64,000 nucleotides of DNA from an uncultured Candidatus Actinomarina sp. GTDB lineage: Bacteria > Actinomycetota > Acidimicrobiia > Actinomarinales > Actinomarinaceae. The number at the start of each line of letters is the position of its first letter. Position 1 is the first letter of the stretch. The notes beneath the pieces were generated by a model that worked only from the letters and a program-made list of their open reading frames with translations, searched no databases and was not told the origin of the DNA. Below are positions 6,246-41,998 of the stretch, piece by piece. A program made the translations under genes and the position numbers. The stretch covers positions 174,844-238,843 of the forward strand of contig CACAND010000001.1 of NCBI GenBank assembly GCA_902533795.1, read 5' to 3'.

Positions 6246-8597
6246 ATGAAAATAAAATTAGAATCTTTAACCTTATTTGTAAAAAGGTACTCAAAAGTCT
6301 TTATAACTCTATTAATTCTCTTTTCGATGATGCCAATCCTATTAAATTTTTTACTTTTTAATGATCATAATGTAGGTATAAGAACTACTGATCATCAATG
6401 TTTTACTAAAAATTCAATTTTAAATAAATTTGATGATTCAAGCGACCTTGATATCTTTGAAACTGGAGAAGGAATCTATGTTATTCCTGAAATTAGTAAT
6501 TTAAAATGTGTTGGAAAAGTAGTTGATTATGTAGTTGATGAAGAAAGTCTTCTTTTATATATTGGAACAAATCCAAAAGCAACAAATCTAGTTTTTATAT
6601 TTTCCTTAATTATTTTTATTTTTTATTCGGCTATTTTCAGGTCGGTAAATTTCCAACTAATTAATGGGTTGTCTTTCATTTTATTTCTTATATCTTTTAT
6701 CTATTTTTATCTTCCATCTTTTCAGATAGTAAATTATTTTGTTTTTGGTTTTTTTGTTATTTCAATTTTGATCTATTCAAATCTTAGGAAAAATAATTTT
6801 GATTTGGTTGAAATAAGTATTTTCATAATTTTTCCAATATTTAGTTTATTGCAATTTAAAGAAAGATGGTTTAGCTGGATCATATTTTTATCGCTTATTT
6901 TATTATTAATCTTTTATTTGATTCAAGTTAAAATTCAAATAAATAATGAATTTAAATTTTTATCTCTTTTATTTTTTCAAAGTTTAATTCTGAATTTAGG
7001 TAGTTTTTTTCAACCACTAAGAGACGCTGAACATTGGAGACAAAATCAAAATGCCTTTGCTGCAAAAACTATTGGAAATGAAGGGATAAATTTTCTGAAT
7101 CCCCTCCCCGTCTTTGGATTAAATTCCAACGTTCCAATGGAGCTACCGATATTACAAAATTTAAGTGGTTTTTTACAGATCATGGGTGTAAGAGAAGATA
7201 TCACCCTAAGACCAATAGCATGGCTTATATATATTCTGTTCATATACTTTTCCTATAAATTCATACTGAACATTTCAAACGAAAAAATTGGAGAAATAGT
7301 TGCAATCTTTTTTGTTTTTACACCTATATTGTATAAATTCTCAAATTCTTATATGATCGAATTCTTACCACATCTTCTTGGTGTATTATCACTGAATCTA
7401 AATATAAATAATAAAAAAATAGCTCCAATAGTTTTAAGCTTGTCCCTTCTTTCAAAAATTACGACTGGCATAATTTACTTATTTTTATTTGCTTGTATTC
7501 AAATTTTTAAAAAGAAAGAAAAAATAACAAAAACTGCCTATGTTTTGAGTATTGCAATTATTCCAAATATAGTTTGGAATATTTACGCTGATTTTGTAAA
7601 GTCTCAAAACTCTTTAACTTCCTGGTTAACAAGTGAGAATCTATTCTCTCATAATTTTGGAACATTAGAACAATATCAGAACATCGAAATTTACAGAAAG
7701 ATTCTCATAATCTTATTGAACAATGTTTGGGGCCAATATTTAACTTTTATTGGTATTGTTTTGATAATTTACTCAATTTTTAGAAGACCAGAAATTATCT
7801 TTGTTTTGATAACTCCTTTTGTTTTCATCAATCTTTATAATGCACATGAATATTATTTTCTAAGTGTCATACCAATAATTTTGTACTACATAATTTATTC
7901 ATTACAACAAATAATAAAGAAAGACAAGATTTTTATAATTGCTTGTTTGTGTATTCTTGTAAATATAAATTTTGGAATTAATAAAAATAGTAAAGAAAAT
8001 TATAGAATAGCTTATAAAGTTAATGAAGAAATTGAACAAGCCGAGAGTTTGTCAATTAAACTTAAGTCTTACACTTACGAAAATACCTATTTATCTTCTG
8101 AAATTAATGATTGGAATCCTATTATTTTTTATGAATCAGACAAAAAAGGCATCATGTATTTAGAAAAATTTGAAATACGAGGAAAAACTAGCTGGGATTC
8201 AAGAAATATTGCAAATGAGAATATTGAGCTTTATGTTTTTGAACAAGGATTCTTAAATATTGACCATTTAAATGTTTACTTATCTAATCAATTTAAAAAT
8301 TATGAAAAAATTAAAATTGATTTATTTCTATATCGTCCAGAAGAAGGGTGGGCAAAAGGTAGAAAGGTGTTTTATTTCATTTTTAGTCCATATAAAGCTG
8401 GAGATTTATCTGATATCTTAATTTTAAATAACAGTGGCATGAACAAGGTTAGTCAAGGTTTGATTGATTGCTTTTACTCAGAAGAGGTGCTTTCCTCTGA
8501 AGCAAGGTCTGATTTAAACATCATACTTTCAAGTATTGGTAACTATCAATATGAAATTTTAAATAAAAGTTATAATTGTCTAGATGAAAGTGCCTAA
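6246..8597 (+). CDS. Large polytopic membrane protein (GT39-like) with N-terminal two-Cys ectodomain
   Basis: DHQCFTK...VIPEISNLKCVGKVVDY...LYIGTN followed by many TM segments; FFQPLRDAEHWRQNQNAFAAK loop. Confidence 0.7.
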   Translation: MKIKLESLTLFVKRYSKVFITLLILFSMMPILLNFLLFNDHNVGIRTTDHQCFTKNSILNKFDDSSDLDIFETGEGIYVIPEISNLKCVGKVVDYVVDEESLLLYIGTNPKATNLVFIFSLIIFIFYSAIFRSVNFQLINGLSFILFLISFIYFYLPSFQIVNYFVFGFFVISILIYSNLRKNNFDLVEISIFIIFPIFSLLQFKERWFSWIIFLSLILLLIFYLIQVKIQINNEFKFLSLLFFQSLILNLGSFFQPLRDAEHWRQNQNAFAAKTIGNEGINFLNPLPVFGLNSNVPMELPILQNLSGFLQIMGVREDITLRPIAWLIYILFIYFSYKFILNISNEKIGEIVAIFFVFTPILYKFSNSYMIEFLPHLLGVLSLNLNINNKKIAPIVLSLSLLSKITTGIIYLFLFACIQIFKKKEKITKTAYVLSIAIIPNIVWNIYADFVKSQNSLTSWLTSENLFSHNFGTLEQYQNIEIYRKILIILLNNVWGQYLTFIGIVLIIYSIFRRPEIIFVLITPFVFINLYNAHEYYFLSVIPIILYYIIYSLQQIIKKDKIFIIACLCILVNINFGINKNSKENYRIAYKVNEEIEQAESLSIKLKSYTYENTYLSSEINDWNPIIFYESDKKGIMYLEKFEIRGKTSWDSRNIANENIELYVFEQGFLNIDHLNVYLSNQFKNYEKIKIDLFLYRPEEGWAKGRKVFYFIFSPYKAGDLSDILILNNSGMNKVSQGLIDCFYSEEVLSSEARSDLNIILSSIGNYQYEILNKSYNCLDESA

Positions 8598-9747
8598 AAG
8601 TGATGTAAGTGTAGTAGGTGGTGCAGGACATATTGGTCTGCCATTAAGTTGCTATATTGCTTCAAAAGGCCATAAAGTCACAATTATCGATACTAATGAA
8701 GATGTACTTAAAAATTTAAAAAATGATAACCTTCCTTTCAGTGAAGTAAATCTTGAGGAATATTGGAAACTAGCAAAAAATAATAATATTGAATTATCAA
8801 ATAAAACTCAATCAATAGAGAATTCTGACTTTATTGTAATAACACTAGGAAGTTCATCAGAAATAGAAGATGTCAAGATTTTTGACAGTTTATTAAACGA
8901 TGTACTCCAAAATGCACGTCCTGAATCAAAAATAATTCTAAGATCAACTATCAATATTCAAACTATCGAAAATATTGAAACTAATAAATTATTTATTGAA
9001 AAAAATTTAAAACTTGCATATTGTCCTGAAAGAATAGCTGAGGGAATGAGTCTTGAAGAATTACCAGCAATGCCGCAAATAATTGGGGTAAAAAATGATG
9101 AAGACTTTCAAATATTCCATAATTTTTTTGATTCGATTAATATTTCAAGTAAAAAAACTACATTTAGAAATGCCGTTTTTTTAAAGCTTTTTACAAATAC
9201 ATATAGATATGCAGAGTTTTCATTAGTAAATGAATTTTATAATATAGCTAAAGAACAGTTAATTGATTTTGATGATATAGTCAGTCTCGCTAAAGATAAT
9301 TATCCTAGATTAAAAAATCTACCATCAAAAGGGTTCGTTGGAGGTCCTTGCTTGATTAAAGATACTAAAACATTCATAAAAGAATATGATAAAAGCAACC
9401 CACTTCTATCTTCAATACAAAATGTAAATGATAAATTTTTTGAAAATATTTTCAACGAATGTCTTGAAATGTTTGAAAACAAAACTTTGATTCAACTTGG
9501 ACTTTCTTTCAAACCTAATTCAGATGACTTAAGATCTTCATTGTCTTTAAGATTTTATTTTTATTTAATAGAAAATGGTTTTAAAGTTTATCCTGTTGAT
9601 AAATTTGTTAAAAGTGAGGAGATTAAATTTTATGAATTTGGAGAAGTGGAAAATTTAACAAACAATATATTAATCGCTACTTATCACGACTATTTTAAGA
9701 AACTCAACTTATCAAATAAGAAAGTAGTCACTGTTGGAAATAAATAA
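8584..9747 (+). CDS. UDP-glucose/GDP-mannose dehydrogenase family protein
   Basis: SVVGGAGHIGLPLSCYIASKGHKV; LAYCPERIAEG; GFVGGPCLIKDT (catalytic Cys context). Confidence 0.88.
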   Translation: MKVPKSDVSVVGGAGHIGLPLSCYIASKGHKVTIIDTNEDVLKNLKNDNLPFSEVNLEEYWKLAKNNNIELSNKTQSIENSDFIVITLGSSSEIEDVKIFDSLLNDVLQNARPESKIILRSTINIQTIENIETNKLFIEKNLKLAYCPERIAEGMSLEELPAMPQIIGVKNDEDFQIFHNFFDSINISSKKTTFRNAVFLKLFTNTYRYAEFSLVNEFYNIAKEQLIDFDDIVSLAKDNYPRLKNLPSKGFVGGPCLIKDTKTFIKEYDKSNPLLSSIQNVNDKFFENIFNECLEMFENKTLIQLGLSFKPNSDDLRSSLSLRFYFYLIENGFKVYPVDKFVKSEEIKFYEFGEVENLTNNILIATYHDYFKKLNLSNKKVVTVGNK

Positions 9748-10426
9748 ATCTTTAATAATACCAGTAAAGGAAGAAGGTATAGAAGTATTAGAAATACTTG
9801 CTAATTTTTTAGAGCATTTAAAAAATGATACAGAATTATTAGTTGTGATTGACTCAATTGAGGACAAGACTCACGAAATTATAAAAAATAGCGCTCTTGA
9901 TATAAAAATAGTTATAAATAATTTAGGTCCTGGTGTAAGTAATGCCATAAACTCTGCAATAAGCGAATGTAAAGGTAAACACATTTGTATCGCAATGGGA
10001 GATGGTAGCGATGACCCAAGACAGGTTGAAGATTTACTAATTTTAATTCAGAGAGGACTTTCTGTTGCTGTTGCTTCACGTTACTCAAGGGGTGGACAGT
10101 TTGTTGGTAATAAAAATTTAAAATACATTCTTAGCAAATATTCAGGTTTTTTTCTAAATTTATTATTTAGGGTCGGAACAAAAGATCCAACAAATATGTT
10201 TAAAGCTTACGATAAAAACTTTCTGCAGGAAGTAAAAATTGAAAGTGATGTAGGTTTTACCCTAGGTCTTGAAATGATAGTAAAAGCTAAACTATATAAA
10301 AGAATGGTTGGGGAGATCCCAACAATTTGGATTGATAGAGCTTTTGGTACATCAAAATTTAATTTTCAATCATTTCTTCCCAAATATTTATACTGGGTAG
10401 GAAGGTTAATGCTAAGAAAGAGATAA
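9734..10426 (+). CDS. GT2 family glycosyltransferase, dolichyl-phosphate-mannose synthase-like
   Basis: SLIIPVKEE...; CIAMGDGSDDPRQ; SRYSRGG; GFTLGLEMIVKA. Confidence 0.8.
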   Translation: MEINKSLIIPVKEEGIEVLEILANFLEHLKNDTELLVVIDSIEDKTHEIIKNSALDIKIVINNLGPGVSNAINSAISECKGKHICIAMGDGSDDPRQVEDLLILIQRGLSVAVASRYSRGGQFVGNKNLKYILSKYSGFFLNLLFRVGTKDPTNMFKAYDKNFLQEVKIESDVGFTLGLEMIVKAKLYKRMVGEIPTIWIDRAFGTSKFNFQSFLPKYLYWVGRLMLRKR

Positions 10427-11436
10427 TGAAAGTACTTGTAACAGGATCAGAAGGATTTATAGGTGGATACATCGTTAAAGAACTTATAAATAAAGGCTAT
10501 GAGGTTGTCGGAATTGATAACTTATCAAAATATGGAAAGCTTGTAAAAAGTTTTTCAGAAGACAAAAATTATAAATTTATACAAAATGATGTCAAAGATA
10601 GAGATTTATTACTTGAGGAAATGTCTGATTGTGAATACTTGATTGCCGGGGCAGCAATGATTGGAGGAATATCTTATTTTCATGATTATGCCTATGATTT
10701 ACTTTCCGAAAATGAAAAAATTATATCTACTACTACAGATATTGCAATTGAGTGCCAAAAAAATCATAAACTAAAAAGAACCGTTTTTCTAAGCTCATCG
10801 ATGGTTTTTGAATCAAGTGATGTATTCCCCACAAAAGAAGAAGATATAAATCATATACCTCCACCAATTAGTTCATACGGTTTTCAAAAGCTTGCTGTTG
10901 AATATTTTGCTAGAGCCGCCAAAGAACAATATGGACTTGAATATTCAATTGCAAGACCATTTAATTGCGTAGGTATTGGGGAAATAAAAGCAATCAATAG
11001 TGATGAAAATTCAAAAAAATTAACATTAAGTCACGTTGTTCCTGACTTGATACTTAAAACAATGATGGCCGATGACTCAATAGAAATTCTAGGTAATGGA
11101 AATCAAATACGTCACTATACATACGGTGAAGACCTTGCAAAGGGTATTGTGATGCTACTTGATCACGAAAATGCAAAGAATGATGACTTCAATTTATCTA
11201 CAAGTGAATCTACCTCTGTATTAGATTTAGCAGAAAAAATTTGGAAAAAATTGAAACCGGACAAAGAATTTAAATATATATCTACTGACCCATATGAATA
11301 TGACGTACAAAAAAGAATACCATCTACTGAAAAAGCAAAAAATTTATTGGGTTTTGAGGCAGATACAAGTCTTGATGAAATGTTAGATATTGTAATTCCA
11401 TGGATTAAAGATGCACATACAAAAGGTTTTTATTAA
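10426..11436 (+). CDS. NAD-dependent epimerase/dehydratase
   Basis: LVTGSEGFIGGYIVKEL; YGFQK catalytic motif. Confidence 0.9.
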   Translation: MKVLVTGSEGFIGGYIVKELINKGYEVVGIDNLSKYGKLVKSFSEDKNYKFIQNDVKDRDLLLEEMSDCEYLIAGAAMIGGISYFHDYAYDLLSENEKIISTTTDIAIECQKNHKLKRTVFLSSSMVFESSDVFPTKEEDINHIPPPISSYGFQKLAVEYFARAAKEQYGLEYSIARPFNCVGIGEIKAINSDENSKKLTLSHVVPDLILKTMMADDSIEILGNGNQIRHYTYGEDLAKGIVMLLDHENAKNDDFNLSTSESTSVLDLAEKIWKKLKPDKEFKYISTDPYEYDVQKRIPSTEKAKNLLGFEADTSLDEMLDIVIPWIKDAHTKGFY

Positions 11437-12425
11437 TTCCTTGATTTGAATAAATTTTTTAATATCACATTAGACCAGTAAATTGTTCTTTTTAATACAT
11501 AAATTATCCTTGTTAAAAGTAATGCATTAGGATAAATTTGCTTATCGTTTATTCCAAAATGTACAGCATATGAAATTCTGACATCTGTGTTGTATGTATT
11601 GTCATCATCATTAAAATCACTTAAATTAGTCAACTGGAATGTTTTAGCGTCGCTTCTAAAGTTTCTTTTTTTTGTATGAGTGGCATCATCACCCCAACCA
11701 ATATTTTTAATGAGGTTTAGTCTTGGAATGATCGATAAATATTTGTTTTTTATCATCGTTGAATACAACATATAATCCCAATTTTTTTCTTCTCTTGAAC
11801 TTACTCTGTTTAGCATCTTATATATTAAATAAGATTCAAATAGTGAGTATCCATCGAATAATTTCCTAATTTTCCTAAATGGTTGATTCCATAAACTAAG
11901 ATCTCCATCAAAATTTTCCCACCTATTTTTCCATGTTGCCCATCCCCATGTGAGTGGAACTTTTGTAAATAAATAACTGTTTTTATTAAAAAAATCTTTA
12001 TTAATTATAGGACCACCATTATCTCCAGATATCATAAACACTCTATCATCTTCAGAATATCTATCTAAAAGAACTGAACAATATTCGTAGAAAGAATCGT
12101 TTGGAATACAATCATCTTCTAAAATAATTCCAACTGTCTCATTCTCAAATAACCAATCAATAGCTTTTTTTGGGGCTATGTGACTTCCATAATTAATTGT
12201 ATTTTGCTGAATTTGAATATCACAACTCCAGTCAATATTCTCAATAATCTTTTTAATTTCATCTATATTTTGACTATCAATAATTTTTTGATTTTCCCGC
12301 GGTCCATCGAAATAAATATATATTTTTTTAGGCTGAGTTTTACTTAAAGAACTTATAAGTTGTTTTGAAATTTCGGGCCTATTGAAAAGAATTAGAAGCA
12401 CAGGAACGCTAATAGATTTTTTCAT
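11433..12425 (-). CDS. Glycosyltransferase, GNT-I/GT13-like hemolytic-type GT-A
   Basis: VPVLLILFNRPEISKQLISSL, GIILEDDCIPNDSFY, WGWATWKNRW. Confidence 0.7.
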   Translation of the reverse strand: MKKSISVPVLLILFNRPEISKQLISSLSKTQPKKIYIYFDGPRENQKIIDSQNIDEIKKIIENIDWSCDIQIQQNTINYGSHIAPKKAIDWLFENETVGIILEDDCIPNDSFYEYCSVLLDRYSEDDRVFMISGDNGGPIINKDFFNKNSYLFTKVPLTWGWATWKNRWENFDGDLSLWNQPFRKIRKLFDGYSLFESYLIYKMLNRVSSREEKNWDYMLYSTMIKNKYLSIIPRLNLIKNIGWGDDATHTKKRNFRSDAKTFQLTNLSDFNDDDNTYNTDVRISYAVHFGINDKQIYPNALLLTRIIYVLKRTIYWSNVILKNLFKSRN

Positions 12426-35127: not shown

Positions 35128-35721
35128 TTAATCAACTGATTTCCAAAGATGGAGAGAAGCTATAGTCCTATAGGGAGACCATTTTTTTGCGTACTCATCA
35201 TATTTATTCCAATCACTATCAGATTTAATCATTTTATAATTATTCATTGCTGATCTTAGTCCAGCATCTTTTGAAGAAAATATGTCAAGATTGCCTGAGC
35301 AAAATATTTCAAACATATTTACGGACCAGGGGCCAATACCAAAAACTGAAAGTAATTTTTCATTCATTTCGTGATGGTCTAGTTTTGTTAAGTCATAAAA
35401 ATTTTTATCTAAAAAAATTTCTGATAATTCTTTGATTGTTCTTGCTTTGTTTTGACTTAAACCAAATTTTTTAATTTGATTAATTTTAAGATTCTGAAAA
35501 TCTTTTGCACTTAGGTACTTGGTATTGAAAAAGTCTTTAATATTTTCATATATAGTATTTGCTGCAGATGTTGAGATAAATTGTGCTATTACAATTGCTG
35601 TAAGGGAATCAAATTGGTTTTTTTTATTTGGTTTAAAAACGATATGACCATTTACGTCAATTAATTTTTTTAATTTTTTATCTAAGCGACGTAAATATTC
35701 TTCTTCTTTTGAAAATTTCAT
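35128..35721 (-). CDS. HhH-GPD DNA glycosylase (AlkA/3-methyladenine glycosylase II-like)
   Basis: VIAQFISTSAANTIYENI; LLSVFGIGPWSVNMFEIF; DAGLRSAMN; WSPYRTIASLHLW. Confidence 0.85.
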   Translation of the reverse strand: MKFSKEEEYLRRLDKKLKKLIDVNGHIVFKPNKKNQFDSLTAIVIAQFISTSAANTIYENIKDFFNTKYLSAKDFQNLKINQIKKFGLSQNKARTIKELSEIFLDKNFYDLTKLDHHEMNEKLLSVFGIGPWSVNMFEIFCSGNLDIFSSKDAGLRSAMNNYKMIKSDSDWNKYDEYAKKWSPYRTIASLHLWKSVD

Positions 35722-35845: not shown

Positions 35846-36325
35846 TTAATTTCTATCTTTTATCACTCTAGCTGGATTTCCATAAGCTAATTTATTTTTT
35901 GGTATATCTTTTGTCACAACGCTGCCAGCACCAATCAGGCAATTTTTCATTAATGTAACACCACAAATAATTGTGCTATTCGCACCAATCGAGACAAAAT
36001 CTTCCACAACAGTTTTAGTTAATCTTTCTTCACTCCAATCCTTAACTTTTGGATATAAATCATTTGTGAAAACTACAGAAGGACCAACAAATACTTCATT
36101 TCCAATTACAACACCTTTATAGACTGAAACATTATTCTGAATTTTACAATTATCACCTATTATTACGCCCTCATCTATATAAACATTTTGTCCGATCGTA
36201 ACATTTTTTCCTATCATCACATTCTCTCTAATGTGTGAAAAGTGCCAAATTTTAGTATCTTTTCCAATAGTAGATCTGTCGCTAACGATAGAGGTTTCAT
36301 GCTGTGTAAAGTTATTATTTTCCAT
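35846..36325 (-). CDS. Left-handed beta-helix acyltransferase (WlbB/WbbJ-like N-acetyltransferase)
   Basis: Hexapeptide repeats IGKNVTIGQNVYIDEGVIIGDNCKIQNNVSVYKGVVIGN. Confidence 0.9.
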   Translation of the reverse strand: MENNNFTQHETSIVSDRSTIGKDTKIWHFSHIRENVMIGKNVTIGQNVYIDEGVIIGDNCKIQNNVSVYKGVVIGNEVFVGPSVVFTNDLYPKVKDWSEERLTKTVVEDFVSIGANSTIICGVTLMKNCLIGAGSVVTKDIPKNKLAYGNPARVIKDRN

Positions 36326-36327
36326 TT

Positions 36328-36429
36328 TGTGGCCAGAGGCAGAATCGAACTGCCTAACCCTTATTTTTTATATAATGGCAGACCACTTGACCTTATCTTA
36401 TTGTAACTTATTCATCATTAGTTTTCGCT
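36328..36429 (-). pseudogene. tRNA-Phe 3'-half fossil (att-like remnant 1)
   Basis: tgtggccagaggcagaatcgaactgcc (36328-36354) is identical to 40335-40361 in and beside tRNA-Phe; the 5' half is not tRNA-Phe but matches the flank of the 38.76 kb fossil, up to ttttcgct. Confidence 0.8.
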
Positions 36430-36586
36430 CATTAGGTTTAGCTTGTATTCGGAAATGAGCAGTAAAATAAATCACAATAAAGAAATTTTTTTAGAACATT
36501 TCTGGCACAGTTTTTAATTAATATTTTTGTAGAATATCAACTAATCCTAAGAGGGTTCATAAATTGGGAAATTGCAGATTAATTTT

Positions 36587-37519
36587 CTATCCATATTGAG
36601 AAATAAAAGTTTTTACCTCATATCCATAACTAATTAGTTGCTTTAACCTATTTTCAAAAATATTTAATTTATACTCAACATCTATATTTATTCTCTCGAG
36701 ATTTGGGGTTTTTTCAAGATTATTAAAATCGTTATTGTCAAGAAAGTCTGCTGGATGAATAAGCAAGTAAAATTGTTCAGATCTAGTTGCAACTAGCTTA
36801 AATATAAAATTAACTAAAAATTTTGGAAACACATACTCTAATGTCATCCAATAAGACAATTTATATTTTGTGGGCAAAGGAATTACCCATATTTTTTTAT
36901 CTTTACTTTTAAAATATGAGTTTTTAACTGGATAGGGTTTTTGTTTCCCAAAAAACATCCTTGCGTAATCCTTTCTTGAAAATAAATCTTTTATATTATA
37001 AGTATGGGCTACTTTTTTCTTTGAAAAATAGTTAAATACATAATTTAATAACATTTTTAACATCGCCAGAAACATTAAAGGTGAAGGAGCTAAGGAGTGG
37101 TCATATGAATAATTTAAATCTACTAATTTCTTAATTGTAAAGCTATTAGAGTTCCAACCTGGAGCAATGAATCCTTTCGAGTCATAATTGAGCTTTTTTT
37201 TAATCAAATTATGTGTATCTTCTATTTCACGCGACTGAACATCATCCTTTAAAAATGCAAAATTTTGATAATGAGAATAACTATGATTTCCGATTTCGTG
37301 CCCTCTTTCAATTAATTTTTTTAAAACATCTATGTTGGAATCATCTTCTAAATCTTTTCCAATGACAAATGCTGACATCTTCGCATTATATTTATCTAAA
37401 ATTTTTTCTATTCGTGGAATTGCAATCTTAAATGCAGGATCATTTTTCATTGGATAAGAATTTGTTGCATAACCAATAGAATCCACATTAAGACTTATGA
37501 ATGCTATTTTTTTATTCAC
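36587..37519 (-). CDS. Polysaccharide deacetylase family protein
   Basis: RIEKILDKYNAKMSAFVIGKDLED; RGHEIGNHSYSHYQN; FIAPGWNSN. Confidence 0.85.
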   Translation of the reverse strand: MNKKIAFISLNVDSIGYATNSYPMKNDPAFKIAIPRIEKILDKYNAKMSAFVIGKDLEDDSNIDVLKKLIERGHEIGNHSYSHYQNFAFLKDDVQSREIEDTHNLIKKKLNYDSKGFIAPGWNSNSFTIKKLVDLNYSYDHSLAPSPLMFLAMLKMLLNYVFNYFSKKKVAHTYNIKDLFSRKDYARMFFGKQKPYPVKNSYFKSKDKKIWVIPLPTKYKLSYWMTLEYVFPKFLVNFIFKLVATRSEQFYLLIHPADFLDNNDFNNLEKTPNLERINIDVEYKLNIFENRLKQLISYGYEVKTFISQYG

Positions 37520-38264
37520 TAAAAATATCTTTCATGGTGATAATTTTGCCACCAGCTTTGTAAAACTTTTTTAAAATATTTTTGTCAGGATAAGAGTAAT
37601 ATGACCCTGGTTCGTATTGTTTTTCTCTTACATTTCTTTTTAAATTTTTATAAAATTCCATAAAATATTTATCAAAATTATCATATATTTCCTTGTAAAA
37701 ATCCACCATAGTCCTCTTTAAATTAATTCTTTCAAAATATACTATATCCCCGGTGTCGATAGATTCTAAAACATAATGAAAAGAGATACCTTGCTCAAAA
37801 CCATTAATTTTATTGTATATATAGGGAAAGACTCCTTTTCCATGAGGTAGTAAAGATGCGTGCTTATTAAACCAAGAAATGTTCTCATTAACTTTTAATA
37901 ATTCTTTGGGAATTATGTAACTGCATGTGATAAAAACCATATCTGGTTTGAAATCTATTATTTTGTTTCGAATTGCGTCTATATCAAAAAAATTTAAATT
38001 CAATGATATTTCTTTATTGAAAGTTTTTTTATTTGTTCTATAGAATTTAATATTTCTTACAATAGAAAAAATCGCTAAAGATAAAAAATTTTTTAATCCA
38101 AAACTTCTAAAATAATATACTGCAGGGTTCATATTTTTTATTTTTTTATCTGGCAATGTAATCAGATTAAATTCAAATTGTTTATATTCAGAGTTTATTA
38201 CCTTGGCCCACGCAGGCTTAAGCCAAACACTATCGTTATTGGTTATTACCAGAATTTTTTTCAC
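37512..38264 (-). CDS. Formyltransferase-family protein (sugar N-formyltransferase-like)
   Basis: NKHASLLPHGKGVFPYIYNKINGFEQGISFHYVLESIDTGDIV matches the formyltransferase N-H-SLLP...D-G-I pattern. Confidence 0.8.
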   Translation of the reverse strand: MKKILVITNNDSVWLKPAWAKVINSEYKQFEFNLITLPDKKIKNMNPAVYYFRSFGLKNFLSLAIFSIVRNIKFYRTNKKTFNKEISLNLNFFDIDAIRNKIIDFKPDMVFITCSYIIPKELLKVNENISWFNKHASLLPHGKGVFPYIYNKINGFEQGISFHYVLESIDTGDIVYFERINLKRTMVDFYKEIYDNFDKYFMEFYKNLKRNVREKQYEPGSYYSYPDKNILKKFYKAGGKIITMKDIFSE

Positions 38265-38423
38265 TTTTAGGGATTATAACCTACTTGACAAAACTTTTTA
38301 ATATAAAGATTTAAACGATCTTTGGTTCTTTTATCGCAAATTTCTAGTGATGAATAGATCCAAGGTGTTTACTCGAAACGGCAAAGGTCTCATACGTTCC
38401 CTTAAATATCCTGCAATGTAAAT

Positions 38424-38675
38424 TTATAAAATCTTAAAATATTTTACGGCGCGAATGGCGAAATAAATAATTAAAAAAAATAAAACTAAAGCAGAAGCAA
38501 TTTCTACAACACTAAGTTCAGGTGGAATATACATAATAAAGCTGGATATCCCACATACACTCCAGAATATTACCTGGTAAAATATTTTTTTTCTTTCTTT
38601 AAAATCATCTGCTTCTCGCAAACTGTCAAGTTTTCTTCCTATGAAGTCAGCTAATAATGAAAAGAACAATCGCAT
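38424..38675 (-). CDS. Small two-TM membrane protein
   Basis: 83 aa with two hydrophobic helices. Confidence 0.5.
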   Translation of the reverse strand: MRLFFSLLADFIGRKLDSLREADDFKERKKIFYQVIFWSVCGISSFIMYIPPELSVVEIASALVLFFLIIYFAIRAVKYFKIL

Positions 38676-38759
38676 CTCCTTTTAATAATTAAATTTTATC
38701 CTATTTTAATTGTTTTAAATATTTTCATTGTTTTATAAATGATCGATATATAACTCTTT

Positions 38760-38857
38760 GACCAGATACAGAATTGAACTGCCGACCCCTGTTTTTTAGA
38801 TATGGGCTAGCTTTTTGACCTTGGTTTATTTTACATTAATTTGTTTTAATTTTCGCT
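38760..38857 (-). pseudogene. tRNA-Phe 3'-half fossil (att-like remnant 2)
   Basis: gaccagatacagaattgaactgccgacccctgttttttaga aligns with tRNA-Phe 40338 onward with a few mismatches and one gap; the following gacctt...ttttcgct flank aligns with fossil 1. Confidence 0.75.
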
Positions 38858-38905
38858 AGTTTTCGGCCTAGAAAAAATCTCTACTAATTTGATTAATTCT
38901 CTTTT

Positions 38906-40228
38906 ATGTATCAAAATTATTTTATGAATATTACTTTCCTTAACCATGCATCATATATATTAGAATCTGAAAATACCAAAATATTGTTTGATCCTTATCT
39001 TTATGGAACAGCATTTAATAATTCATGGAAACTTTTTAATGAAGAAAAGCATGACTTAACCGATATTAACTATATATTTTTCTCTCACGAACACCCAGAT
39101 CACTTCTCAGTTGATTTCATTAAAAATCATTTCAATGAGAAAAGAGATGAAATTACTATTTTATATCAAGAGACTTATGACAAAAGGATAAAAAACTTCT
39201 GTTCAAAATTAGGTTATAATTTTCTAGAATTGCCAAATTATAAAGAGGTCTTATTAGAAAATGACTTAAAAATCACACTAGGCAAGGTTCCGTTCTATGA
39301 CTCATGGGTTATGGTTTCCAATTCTGATCACAACATATTAAATGTAAATGATTGTGTTTTAGAAGATCCGTCATTAGTTCATACAATAAAAAAGATTTCG
39401 GGTGACTCTAAAATTGATGTGTTATTAACACAATTTTCTTATGCCGGTTTTGCTGAGTATGAACAAAGATCAATAAATGCCAAAAGTCAACTAGAGACTA
39501 TCAAGTTGCAAGATACTATCTTAAAACCAAAAAACATAATTCCTTTTGCTAGTTTTATATATTTTGCCCATAAAGAAAGCTTCTATATGAATGACTTCAT
39601 TAACACTCCAGAAATTACTGAAAACTTTTTAAAAAATAACATTAGTGGGAATACAGTATGGTTAAAACCAAATGAAAAATGGAAAGTTAACGAAAAAAAA
39701 GAAAACCATACTTCTATTGATTATTGGATGGAGTTTTATAATAATATAAATTCTTTACCCAAAGTAGACTCTGGTGAATCAGTAGAGATTTCAGAATTAG
39801 AAAATAAGTATCAAAAATATATTTCAAGAATTAAAAGTAAAAATAATAGATTTTTATTAAACATATATAACATTGTATTAGGTAAATATGTAACTATGCA
39901 CTTGTATGATATTGATACTTTTATAAAAATTAATCTGCTGAAAGGTATCATAACTCTTCAAAACAAACCAGAAAATTTTATAAAGCTTCATTCAGAAACC
40001 CTCGCATTTGTTTTTGATTTTGATTTTGGTATAGATACTTTTTCAGTTAGTGCAAGGTTTGAATCTGATGCAGAATTGTTTAATAGGTTTTGTCAGTCCT
40101 TTGCTATAGGCGAGTTAAATAATACAGGAAAATATTTAAAATTTAGTAACTTCTATAAATTTTTTCAACAAGGTGTTTTAAAAAGGTTAATTAACTTTAT
40201 TACTATTGGGCCTGGAAATAAAAAATAA
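38906..40228 (+). CDS. MBL-fold metal-dependent hydrolase (UlaG/CMAH-like)
   Basis: NITFLNHASYILESENTKILFDPYLYGTAF; FFSHEHPDHFS. Confidence 0.8.
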   Translation: MYQNYFMNITFLNHASYILESENTKILFDPYLYGTAFNNSWKLFNEEKHDLTDINYIFFSHEHPDHFSVDFIKNHFNEKRDEITILYQETYDKRIKNFCSKLGYNFLELPNYKEVLLENDLKITLGKVPFYDSWVMVSNSDHNILNVNDCVLEDPSLVHTIKKISGDSKIDVLLTQFSYAGFAEYEQRSINAKSQLETIKLQDTILKPKNIIPFASFIYFAHKESFYMNDFINTPEITENFLKNNISGNTVWLKPNEKWKVNEKKENHTSIDYWMEFYNNINSLPKVDSGESVEISELENKYQKYISRIKSKNNRFLLNIYNIVLGKYVTMHLYDIDTFIKINLLKGIITLQNKPENFIKLHSETLAFVFDFDFGIDTFSVSARFESDAELFNRFCQSFAIGELNNTGKYLKFSNFYKFFQQGVLKRLINFITIGPGNKK

Positions 40229-40336
40229 TCTTTAATGCTCAGTACTTATCAGTTAAGTAGTTTCTAATAATCATATTGCTTAAACTAGCTATAAAAATTT
40301 GAAAAGAGTTTTAGTTTTTATTAAGTAAAAACCCTG

Positions 40337-40409
40337 TGGCCAGAGGCAGAATCGAACTGCCGACCCCTTGTTTTTCAGACAAGTGCTCTACCGACTGAGC
40401 TATCTGGCC
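40337..40409 (-). tRNA. tRNA-Phe (GAA)
   Basis: Reverse complement GGCCAGATAGCTCAGTCGGTAGAGCACTTGTCTGAAAAACAAGGGGTCGGCAGTTCGATTCTGCCTCTGGCCA folds as a cloverleaf, loop CTGAAAA. Confidence 0.97.
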
Positions 40410-40415
40410 TTAAAG

Positions 40416-40490
40416 CGGGGACGACGGGATTCGAACCCGCGACCTCCTGCGTGACAGGCAGGCGTAAACTCCAGACTTTACCACGCCCCC
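40416..40490 (-). tRNA. tRNA-Asp (GTC)
   Basis: Reverse complement GGGGGCGTGGTAAAGTC...CCTGCCTGTCACGCAGG...GTTCGAATCCCGTCGTCCCCG, loop CTGTCAC. Confidence 0.95.
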
Positions 40491-40558: not shown

Positions 40559-41998
40559 ATGACAATAATAAGTAGAATAAAATATTTCTTGAGATTTATT
40601 TTTCTTCAAATATCCTTATCTTCTTTTACAATTTTTTACTTTGATAGATTCTTAATCGGAAATTATGTGGATGGATTTAATATTATCGTTCGAAACCTAT
40701 TAGAAGATAGAGATAGGTTTTTTCCGTTTGTAACAAATTATTTTATAAAAATTGATATTTTTCTCACAGTATTTGTTTTTTTATTTTTGATTATGTTGTA
40801 CACTTCAAAATTTTATAGCTTAGTAAATGAATTATCATTTACAGTCGATAAAGGATTGTTTGATGAATTTATTCCAATATATTTATTGTGGTCAGCTTCT
40901 TTATTGTCTTTTCTGCAAATTTTTAGATTTACTGCTGTTTCGAGAGGGTATCTATTATTATTTACAATAATTATTCCATTATTTCTTGTTTTGTTCAGAA
41001 ACAGTGAGTTTATTTCAAAGCTTCTAGGTAGAAACGTAACTGATGAAAATTTTATATCGTTTAACCTGGAGGAAGATTCAGTATTTAACGAGTTGAGGCT
41101 TTTAAAGTTTAGAACAAGCTTAAAAAACTTTAATATAGAAAATATTGAAAATTTTAAATCAATTGAAAAAGAAATTGAGGAAACAAATAAAAAAGAAAGA
41201 GTTAACCTCGTTGTAGTAAATTTAAATAGAGTTACGAATTTAAATAGATCTTTTGAAAAATACTTACTTGATTTAAATAAAAAAGTGTTGTTAATTTCAT
41301 CAGAAAATTTAACGTTTAATTTAAAATTTTATTTTCGTACAACAAGTTTAAATAACAAGAATTTATATTATATTAATAATGATGTTCAATATGGAAGTAG
41401 ATACATAATAAAAAGAGTTATTGATTTATCTATATCTGTTTTCTGCTTGTTAGTTTTCACACCAATATTAATTTTTACTTACTTATTTATTTTTTTTAAA
41501 GATGGAAGTCCAATTCTATATAAACAAACAAGAGTTGGTTTACATGGTAATAATTTTCAAATGTTTAAGTTTCGTACAATGAAAAAAAATTCACATAAGC
41601 AAAGAGAGGACTTGGAAGAAATAAATAATAAGTCAGGTCCTTTATTCAAAATAGAAAATGACCCAAGACTAATTGATGGTATCGGTTTTATTAGAAAGTT
41701 TAGTATCGACGAAATACCACAATTTTTAAATGTTTTAAAAGGTGAAATGTCTATCGTAGGACCCCGGCCATTGTTTCCAGAAGACAATAAATATTATGAT
41801 CAGCACTACATAAGACGATTAAATGTTTTGCCGGGAATAACAGGATTACTTCAAATTAATGAAAGAAATACAGATGATTTTGATATTTGGTTCAAATACG
41901 ACATCGAATATATAGACAATTGGAGCATTTATTTAGATTTTAAAATAATGATAAGTACGCCAAAGGCAATTTTTAAAAATAAAACTAAGGGCTATTAA
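40559..41998 (+). CDS. Polyprenyl-phosphate sugar phosphotransferase (bacterial sugar transferase family)
   Basis: KRVIDLSISVFCLLVFTPI; GSPILYKQTRVGLHGNNFQMFKFRTM; GFIRKFSIDEIPQFLNVLKGEMSIVGPRP. Confidence 0.95.
   Translation: MTIISRIKYFLRFIFLQISLSSFTIFYFDRFLIGNYVDGFNIIVRNLLEDRDRFFPFVTNYFIKIDIFLTVFVFLFLIMLYTSKFYSLVNELSFTVDKGLFDEFIPIYLLWSASLLSFLQIFRFTAVSRGYLLLFTIIIPLFLVLFRNSEFISKLLGRNVTDENFISFNLEEDSVFNELRLLKFRTSLKNFNIENIENFKSIEKEIEETNKKERVNLVVVNLNRVTNLNRSFEKYLLDLNKKVLLISSENLTFNLKFYFRTTSLNNKNLYYINNDVQYGSRYIIKRVIDLSISVFCLLVFTPILIFTYLFIFFKDGSPILYKQTRVGLHGNNFQMFKFRTMKKNSHKQREDLEEINNKSGPLFKIENDPRLIDGIGFIRKFSIDEIPQFLNVLKGEMSIVGPRPLFPEDNKYYDQHYIRRLNVLPGITGLLQINERNTDDFDIWFKYDIEYIDNWSIYLDFKIMISTPKAIFKNKTKGY

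Follow-up and report, generated by a model that had tools for sequence, protein, structure and literature searches.

A probable accretion array of small integrase-less cassettes at tRNA-Phe in Candidatus Actinomarina

Two partial tRNA-Phe copies in the window are joined to a conserved arm

What left two partial copies of a tRNA gene strung out beyond the 3′ end of the intact gene? We addressed this question for a 64-kb stretch of DNA (the window) from a Candidatus Actinomarina genome of 0.98 Mb in 13 contigs. The answer that we favor, with a probability of about 0.85, is site-specific accretion, which would make the locus an array of small, integrase-less cassettes at tRNA-Phe. Features of the locus are listed in Table 1.

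Table 1. Features at and around the tRNA-Phe locus of the window
Feature	Position	Strand	Family or method
HhH-GPD protein (c6), outer flank	35128..35721	minus	
Hexapeptide acetyltransferase, first gene past the outer site	35846..36325	minus	PF00132
Outer attR-like site: arm (36377-36432) + tRNA-Phe core (36328-36376)	36328..36432	minus	
Block A polysaccharide deacetylase	36587..37519	minus	PF01522
Block A formyltransferase-like protein	37512..38264	minus	PF00551
Block A 83-aa hydrophobic protein (c5 family)	38424..38675	minus	no family match
Inner attR-like site: arm (38804-38860) + tRNA-Phe core (38757-38803)	38757..38860	minus	
Block B MBL-fold protein, 440 aa	38906..40228	plus	PF13483
Block B tRNA-proximal end (P′ arm), CAGGGTTTTTACTTA...	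40297..40336	minus	
tRNA-Phe(GAA), intact, putative integration target	40336/40337-40409	minus	ARAGORN, Rfam
Putative crossover region in tRNA-Phe: anticodon loop CTGAAAA, flanked by CACTTGT / ACAAGGG	40372-40378	minus	
tRNA-Asp, conserved neighbor 5′ of tRNA-Phe	40415..40490	minus	
Bacterial sugar transferase (c1), conserved upstream flank	40559..41998	plus	

The tRNA-Phe, tRNA-Asp, tRNA-Lys, and tRNA-Arg genes of the window all lie on the minus strand. An initial annotation had placed two direct-orientation copies of the tRNA-Phe 3′ half 3′ of the intact gene; both were located, and their orientation and position were right. The outer copy matches tRNA-Phe positions 28 to 74 at 36329-36375 (87% over 47 nt; E value of 3e-11), and the inner copy matches positions 23 to 73 at 38759-38808 (82% over 51 nt; E value of 2e-8), while the same comparison across the 64-kb window yielded no comparable partial copies of the other three tRNAs. 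The 27-nt identity claimed for the outer copy is exact (36328-36354 equals 40335-40361, 27/27 nt), but the sequence that follows it, originally described as degenerate, turned out to be a conserved non-tRNA arm, found by a model built without the window.

Both window cores are joined, on the tRNA 5′ side, to this arm of ~56 nt, which reads approximately ATGAGCGAAAATTCAAAATGAATAAGTTAAAATGAAATAAGGTCAAATGGTTTGCCC. With the window rows left out, an arm-only model, whose first seeds were picked for carrying the core and whose alignment rows are partly kin (e.g., G005 and G036), recovered the outer arm at an E value of 2.7e-8 and the inner arm at 1.3e-6; it found nothing credible elsewhere in the 64-kb window, the next matches having E values of >6. 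The full arm-plus-core model, again without window rows, matched the two sites at 1.2e-22 and 5e-19.

Our survey set comprised 42 genomes of a single genus, most of them incomplete; the family and order tiers added none. The arm-plus-core model had matches in 35 of the 42, many of these being the intact tRNA only, and was matched over essentially its whole length in at least 15, where it stands beside unrelated cargo. The tRNA-like copies in relatives start at tRNA position 20 to 38 and mostly end at position 73. Because the conserved arm and core recur together across the genus, the window copies are, judging from sequence, element ends (attR) and not decayed tRNAs. Tandem duplication of the tRNA-Phe gene followed by decay would fit the superficial resemblance of arm plus core to a full-length tRNA missing part of the D arm. 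We rejected it as extremely improbable, since what would be the 5′ part is a non-tRNA arm conserved in other genomes, where it accompanies unrelated cargo and also occupies a second locus; copies keeping the tRNA 5′ half were not seen in these comparisons.

The window blocks are probably old and immobile

Block A lies between the two attR-like sites, and block B lies between the inner site and tRNA-Phe. Their gene content agreed with the initial annotation, which had also reported that they hold no integrase; neither open reading frames nor Pfam searches gave a recombinase in either block. The c5 family of block A has matches in 23 of the 42 genomes and stands beside tRNA-Phe in G006, G024, and G033 and beside panB in G031 and G032. 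Many relatives carry the c6 protein of the outer flank in their tRNA-Phe island, at distances that vary. For the MBL-fold protein of block B, no relatives were found in the genome-contig collection, and full-length homologues of its gene were found in none of the 41 other genus genomes. Conservation of the blocks in all relatives, named at the outset as an observation that would speak against repeated integration, was thus not seen for block B.

In G006 and G028, the CAGGGTTTTTACTTA motif of the block B P′ arm likewise comes after tRNA-Phe or a fossil core, and related motifs occur elsewhere; the arm-type direct repeats of other cassettes are absent from this arm. From its two bounding sites, we infer that block A arrived as one insertion. 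Both blocks are without integration or transfer genes and keep two bounding att sites, a combination expected of a CIME. The window cores carry mutations, and no repeats are present in the proximal arm of block B, so the blocks are probably old and immobile, two older insertions inside a polysaccharide (glycotype) island.

Cassettes accrete at tRNA-Phe and are displaced by later arrivals

In the window, the intact tRNA-Phe gene has direct-orientation 3′ fragments downstream, and among relatives the segments that such fragments bound are variably present. Cassettes span ~0.26 kb to a few kb and carry one to three genes. Measured from the tRNA end, the first site lies at 260 bp in G024, 665 bp in G005 and G036, 798 bp in G028, 851 bp in G025, 867 bp in G035, 992 bp in G027, 1,647 bp in G021, and 2.2 to 2.6 kb in G040 and G016. 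Additional outer sites are present in G028, G016, and the window, with weaker ones in G034. These relatives bear out the initial proposal that integration recurred and drove old 3′ ends outward: variable cassettes end in the same arm and core, one cassette is found both adjacent to the tRNA and displaced from it, and unlike cassettes occupy collinear flanks. The last case is seen in G003 and G011, which have near-identical flanks and unlike cassettes beside tRNA-Phe, followed by 16.5 kb collinear at 96.5%.

The cassette found in both positions, c59, is 665 bp long, has both ends, and carries no integrase. Its copies in G005 and G036 are 99.5% identical; the two loci align at 99.3% from −156 to +665, homology stops at the core end, past which the stretch compared shows unrelated flanks. 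The G027 copy is 98.8% identical to that of G005 over 585 bp, and its 127-aa product is identical. There, c59 is placed behind a different, newer cassette of 992 bp, and its distal arm breaks off after ~25 nt, an arrangement showing that a newer insertion has pushed an older cassette outward. Among the three genomes, identity over ~490 bp each is 67 to 69% for xerD (69% between G005 and G036) and 66 to 71% for xerC. Since c59 is ~99% identical and integrase-less in three species this far apart in their xer genes, it was apparently transferred in the integrase-less state, and it appears to have spread recently, nearly unchanged, between distantly related species. Where the initial annotation had offered mobilization in trans or decay, c59 thus supports the former for the family, and degraded cores and missing arm repeats support the latter for the window copies.

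In the same xer comparisons, the xerD fragments of G000 (L139) and G025 (L141) were identical over 492 bp and their tRNA-Phe loci strongly different, reflecting either recent recombination or close kinship.

The same cassettes occur at a second site upstream of panB

A tRNA-Phe 3′ segment lies directly upstream of panB (PF02548) at nine loci with a conserved neighborhood. The panB core is absent from the window genome and several relatives, and others keep only a short TGAAAAACAAG trace. Three cassettes are common to the tRNA-Phe and panB sites: c87 (G038/G023; 95%), c88 (G007/G026; 86%), and c94 (G011/G022; 85%). These pairs show that the cassettes also use a second site. In G016, the panB-site cassette is bounded at both ends (core at L097:8392, arm plus core at 9286-9365), and the start of its gene resembles HlyIII in a by-eye reading. 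A further arm-plus-core match in this genome (G016:C31; L066 9866-9961) is at neither tRNA-Phe nor panB but has as neighbors genes that relatives carry downstream of panB; it may mark a third site or a rearrangement.

Island segments might also be swapped without any integrase, by homologous recombination anchored on the tRNA-Asp/tRNA-Phe pair and the repeated core. The pair is near-identical in all genus genomes, and published work (PMC7771536) emphasizes homologous recombination for core genes of this order. Such exchange is nevertheless unlikely here: the distal breakpoint is the end of a ~45-bp core with unrelated flank past it, the conserved arm travels with the core, and the same cassettes occur upstream of panB, where the tRNA pair is missing.

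Integrase relics and arm repeats suggest a tyrosine integrase that may act in trans

The genome search called for in the initial annotation recovered two PF00589 loci in the window genome, both XerC/XerD type and both on another contig; no integron integrase was found there. In nearly all 42 genomes, PF00589 matches are of XerC/XerD type; the exceptions, described below, are in G016, G007, and G014. Serine recombinases were found in 0 of 42 genomes by a search that was positive in 10 of 14 control genomes. As the sole tyrosine recombinases in nearly all genomes, the host XerC/XerD proteins could be proposed to integrate the cassettes, as in an IMEX-like element. We consider this quite improbable, because arm-type repeats and phage-type integrase relics indicate another enzyme. 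The core halves are also unlike the dif half-sites known to us, although the dif of this genus may differ.

The relic P0001 of G016 is a 145-aa C-terminal integrase remnant that has an att site on either side and belongs, by its matches, with phage integrases. In G012, a stretch of 24 residues ~650 bp from tRNA-Phe matches this relic, and G014 has a weak 75-aa integrase-like fragment. No transfer genes were seen. Viral contigs contained neither the P0001 relic nor the exact arm and core patterns; phages gave only distant matches to the relic (<60% identity) and none to c59.

Two neighboring observations concern individual genomes. In G007 (L103, G007:C1:219000-238500, 6844-11882), a tRNA-Leu gene and a full-length tyrosine integrase (339-aa frame) lie between two identical copies of tRNA-Ile that are ~4.9 kb apart, an apparent integrase-bearing island at tRNA-Ile. 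In G012 (L073 1-790), repeated ATATCAATATA-like motifs, possibly iterons, stand beside tRNA-Phe ahead of the integrase relic.

Direct repeats were detected at 16 of 41 junctions at a P value of <0.05 (~2 expected), with a prominent period of 11 to 12. The tRNA-proximal arms often carry two motif copies 11 to 12 bp apart, the motif sequence differing by cassette; these repeats are candidate arm-binding sites of an integrase.

The relics also bear on CIME-type decay, in which the blocks would be remnants of larger islands that lost their integrase in place and kept attL and attR, with no movement in trans. This explanation fits the decay of arms and cores, seen both in the window and outside it, as well as the relic between att sites in G016 and the shorter one in G012; tandem accretion is also known to yield CIMEs (PMC5704250). 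Decay in place would, however, require implausible independent and identical deletions to produce the integrase-less c59 copies, and we regard it as possible but doubtful.

In the accretion that we favor, cassettes would integrate at tRNA-Phe by recombination of the tyrosine recombinase type in the anticodon loop, one of the standard tRNA subsites for crossover (PMC4383910). The predicted partners are CCCTTAT-CTGAAAA-ACAAGGG of the element and CACTTGT-CTGAAAA-ACAAGGG of the tRNA. Every arriving cassette would bring its own 3′ half to complete the gene; the tRNA would thereby stay whole, and the previous 3′ half would be pushed outward, ending up joined to the distal arm of the element (attR). 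The recombinase may be a phage- or satellite-type tyrosine integrase acting in trans, with relics in G016 and probably G012. Because no full-length tRNA-Phe-specific integrase was found among the 42 mostly incomplete genomes, we can only infer this enzyme and its supply in trans.

Tentatively, and at somewhat less than even odds, we suggest a broader cassette economy: minimal cassettes with shared att ends would circulate among Actinomarina species and between the tRNA-Phe and panB docking sites, with a resident recombinase absent in most hosts and a rare phage or satellite integrase serving in trans, in a role like that of integron cassettes. The array suggests how an ocean bacterium with a streamlined genome, in which hardly any mobile elements are recognizable, could still swap envelope-related genes via hitchhiking cassettes. 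Island finders that require an integrase (e.g., Islander) would miss such cassettes; their shared ends offer a searchable signature and a testable question about the helper.

Comparison with known systems

Small tRNA-targeted cassettes with direct repeats have already been published for fGI1 of Ca. Actinomarinales, with single-copy Asp, Ile, and Phe tRNA genes among the targets (PMC7771536). The present cassettes share with these the order, the envelope-polysaccharide island, and part-tRNA direct repeats at cassette ends. In the passages of that paper that were examined, we found no mention of att arms, arm repeats, integrase relics, the panB site, or any integrase-less cassette nearly identical between distant species, and the word "integrase" is absent from its main text.

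We consider the array a genuine variant of the CIME and tandem-island kind and not a tycheposon. Tycheposons, as described in PMC10872708, are likewise marine and tRNA bounded with variable cargo; however, they have a tyrosine recombinase and measure 4 to 200 kb, whereas the window blocks have none and measure ~1.6 and 2.4 kb, and the likeness drawn in the initial annotation is not supported past this general logic. Like CIMEs (PMC5704250), the blocks keep att sites, lack integration and transfer genes, and stack at a target gene, but CIMEs are described as decayed ICEs or IMEs, whereas here single-gene units apparently moved between species without an integrase. The Dehalococcoides ssrA islands, 15 of which are without an integration module, are also tandem, with repeats of an RNA-gene 3′ end and a conserved motif beside the repeat (PMC3146451). 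Those islands involve a serine recombinase and T-loop crossover; here, we find tyrosine-type relics, a predicted anticodon-loop crossover, and far smaller units. Integron arrays and CALINs (PMC11389934) offer a further parallel, in that their integrase-less cassettes also form an anchored array and rely on an enzyme that comes from another source, with the difference that here a tRNA gene provides the anchor and its 3′ half the core.
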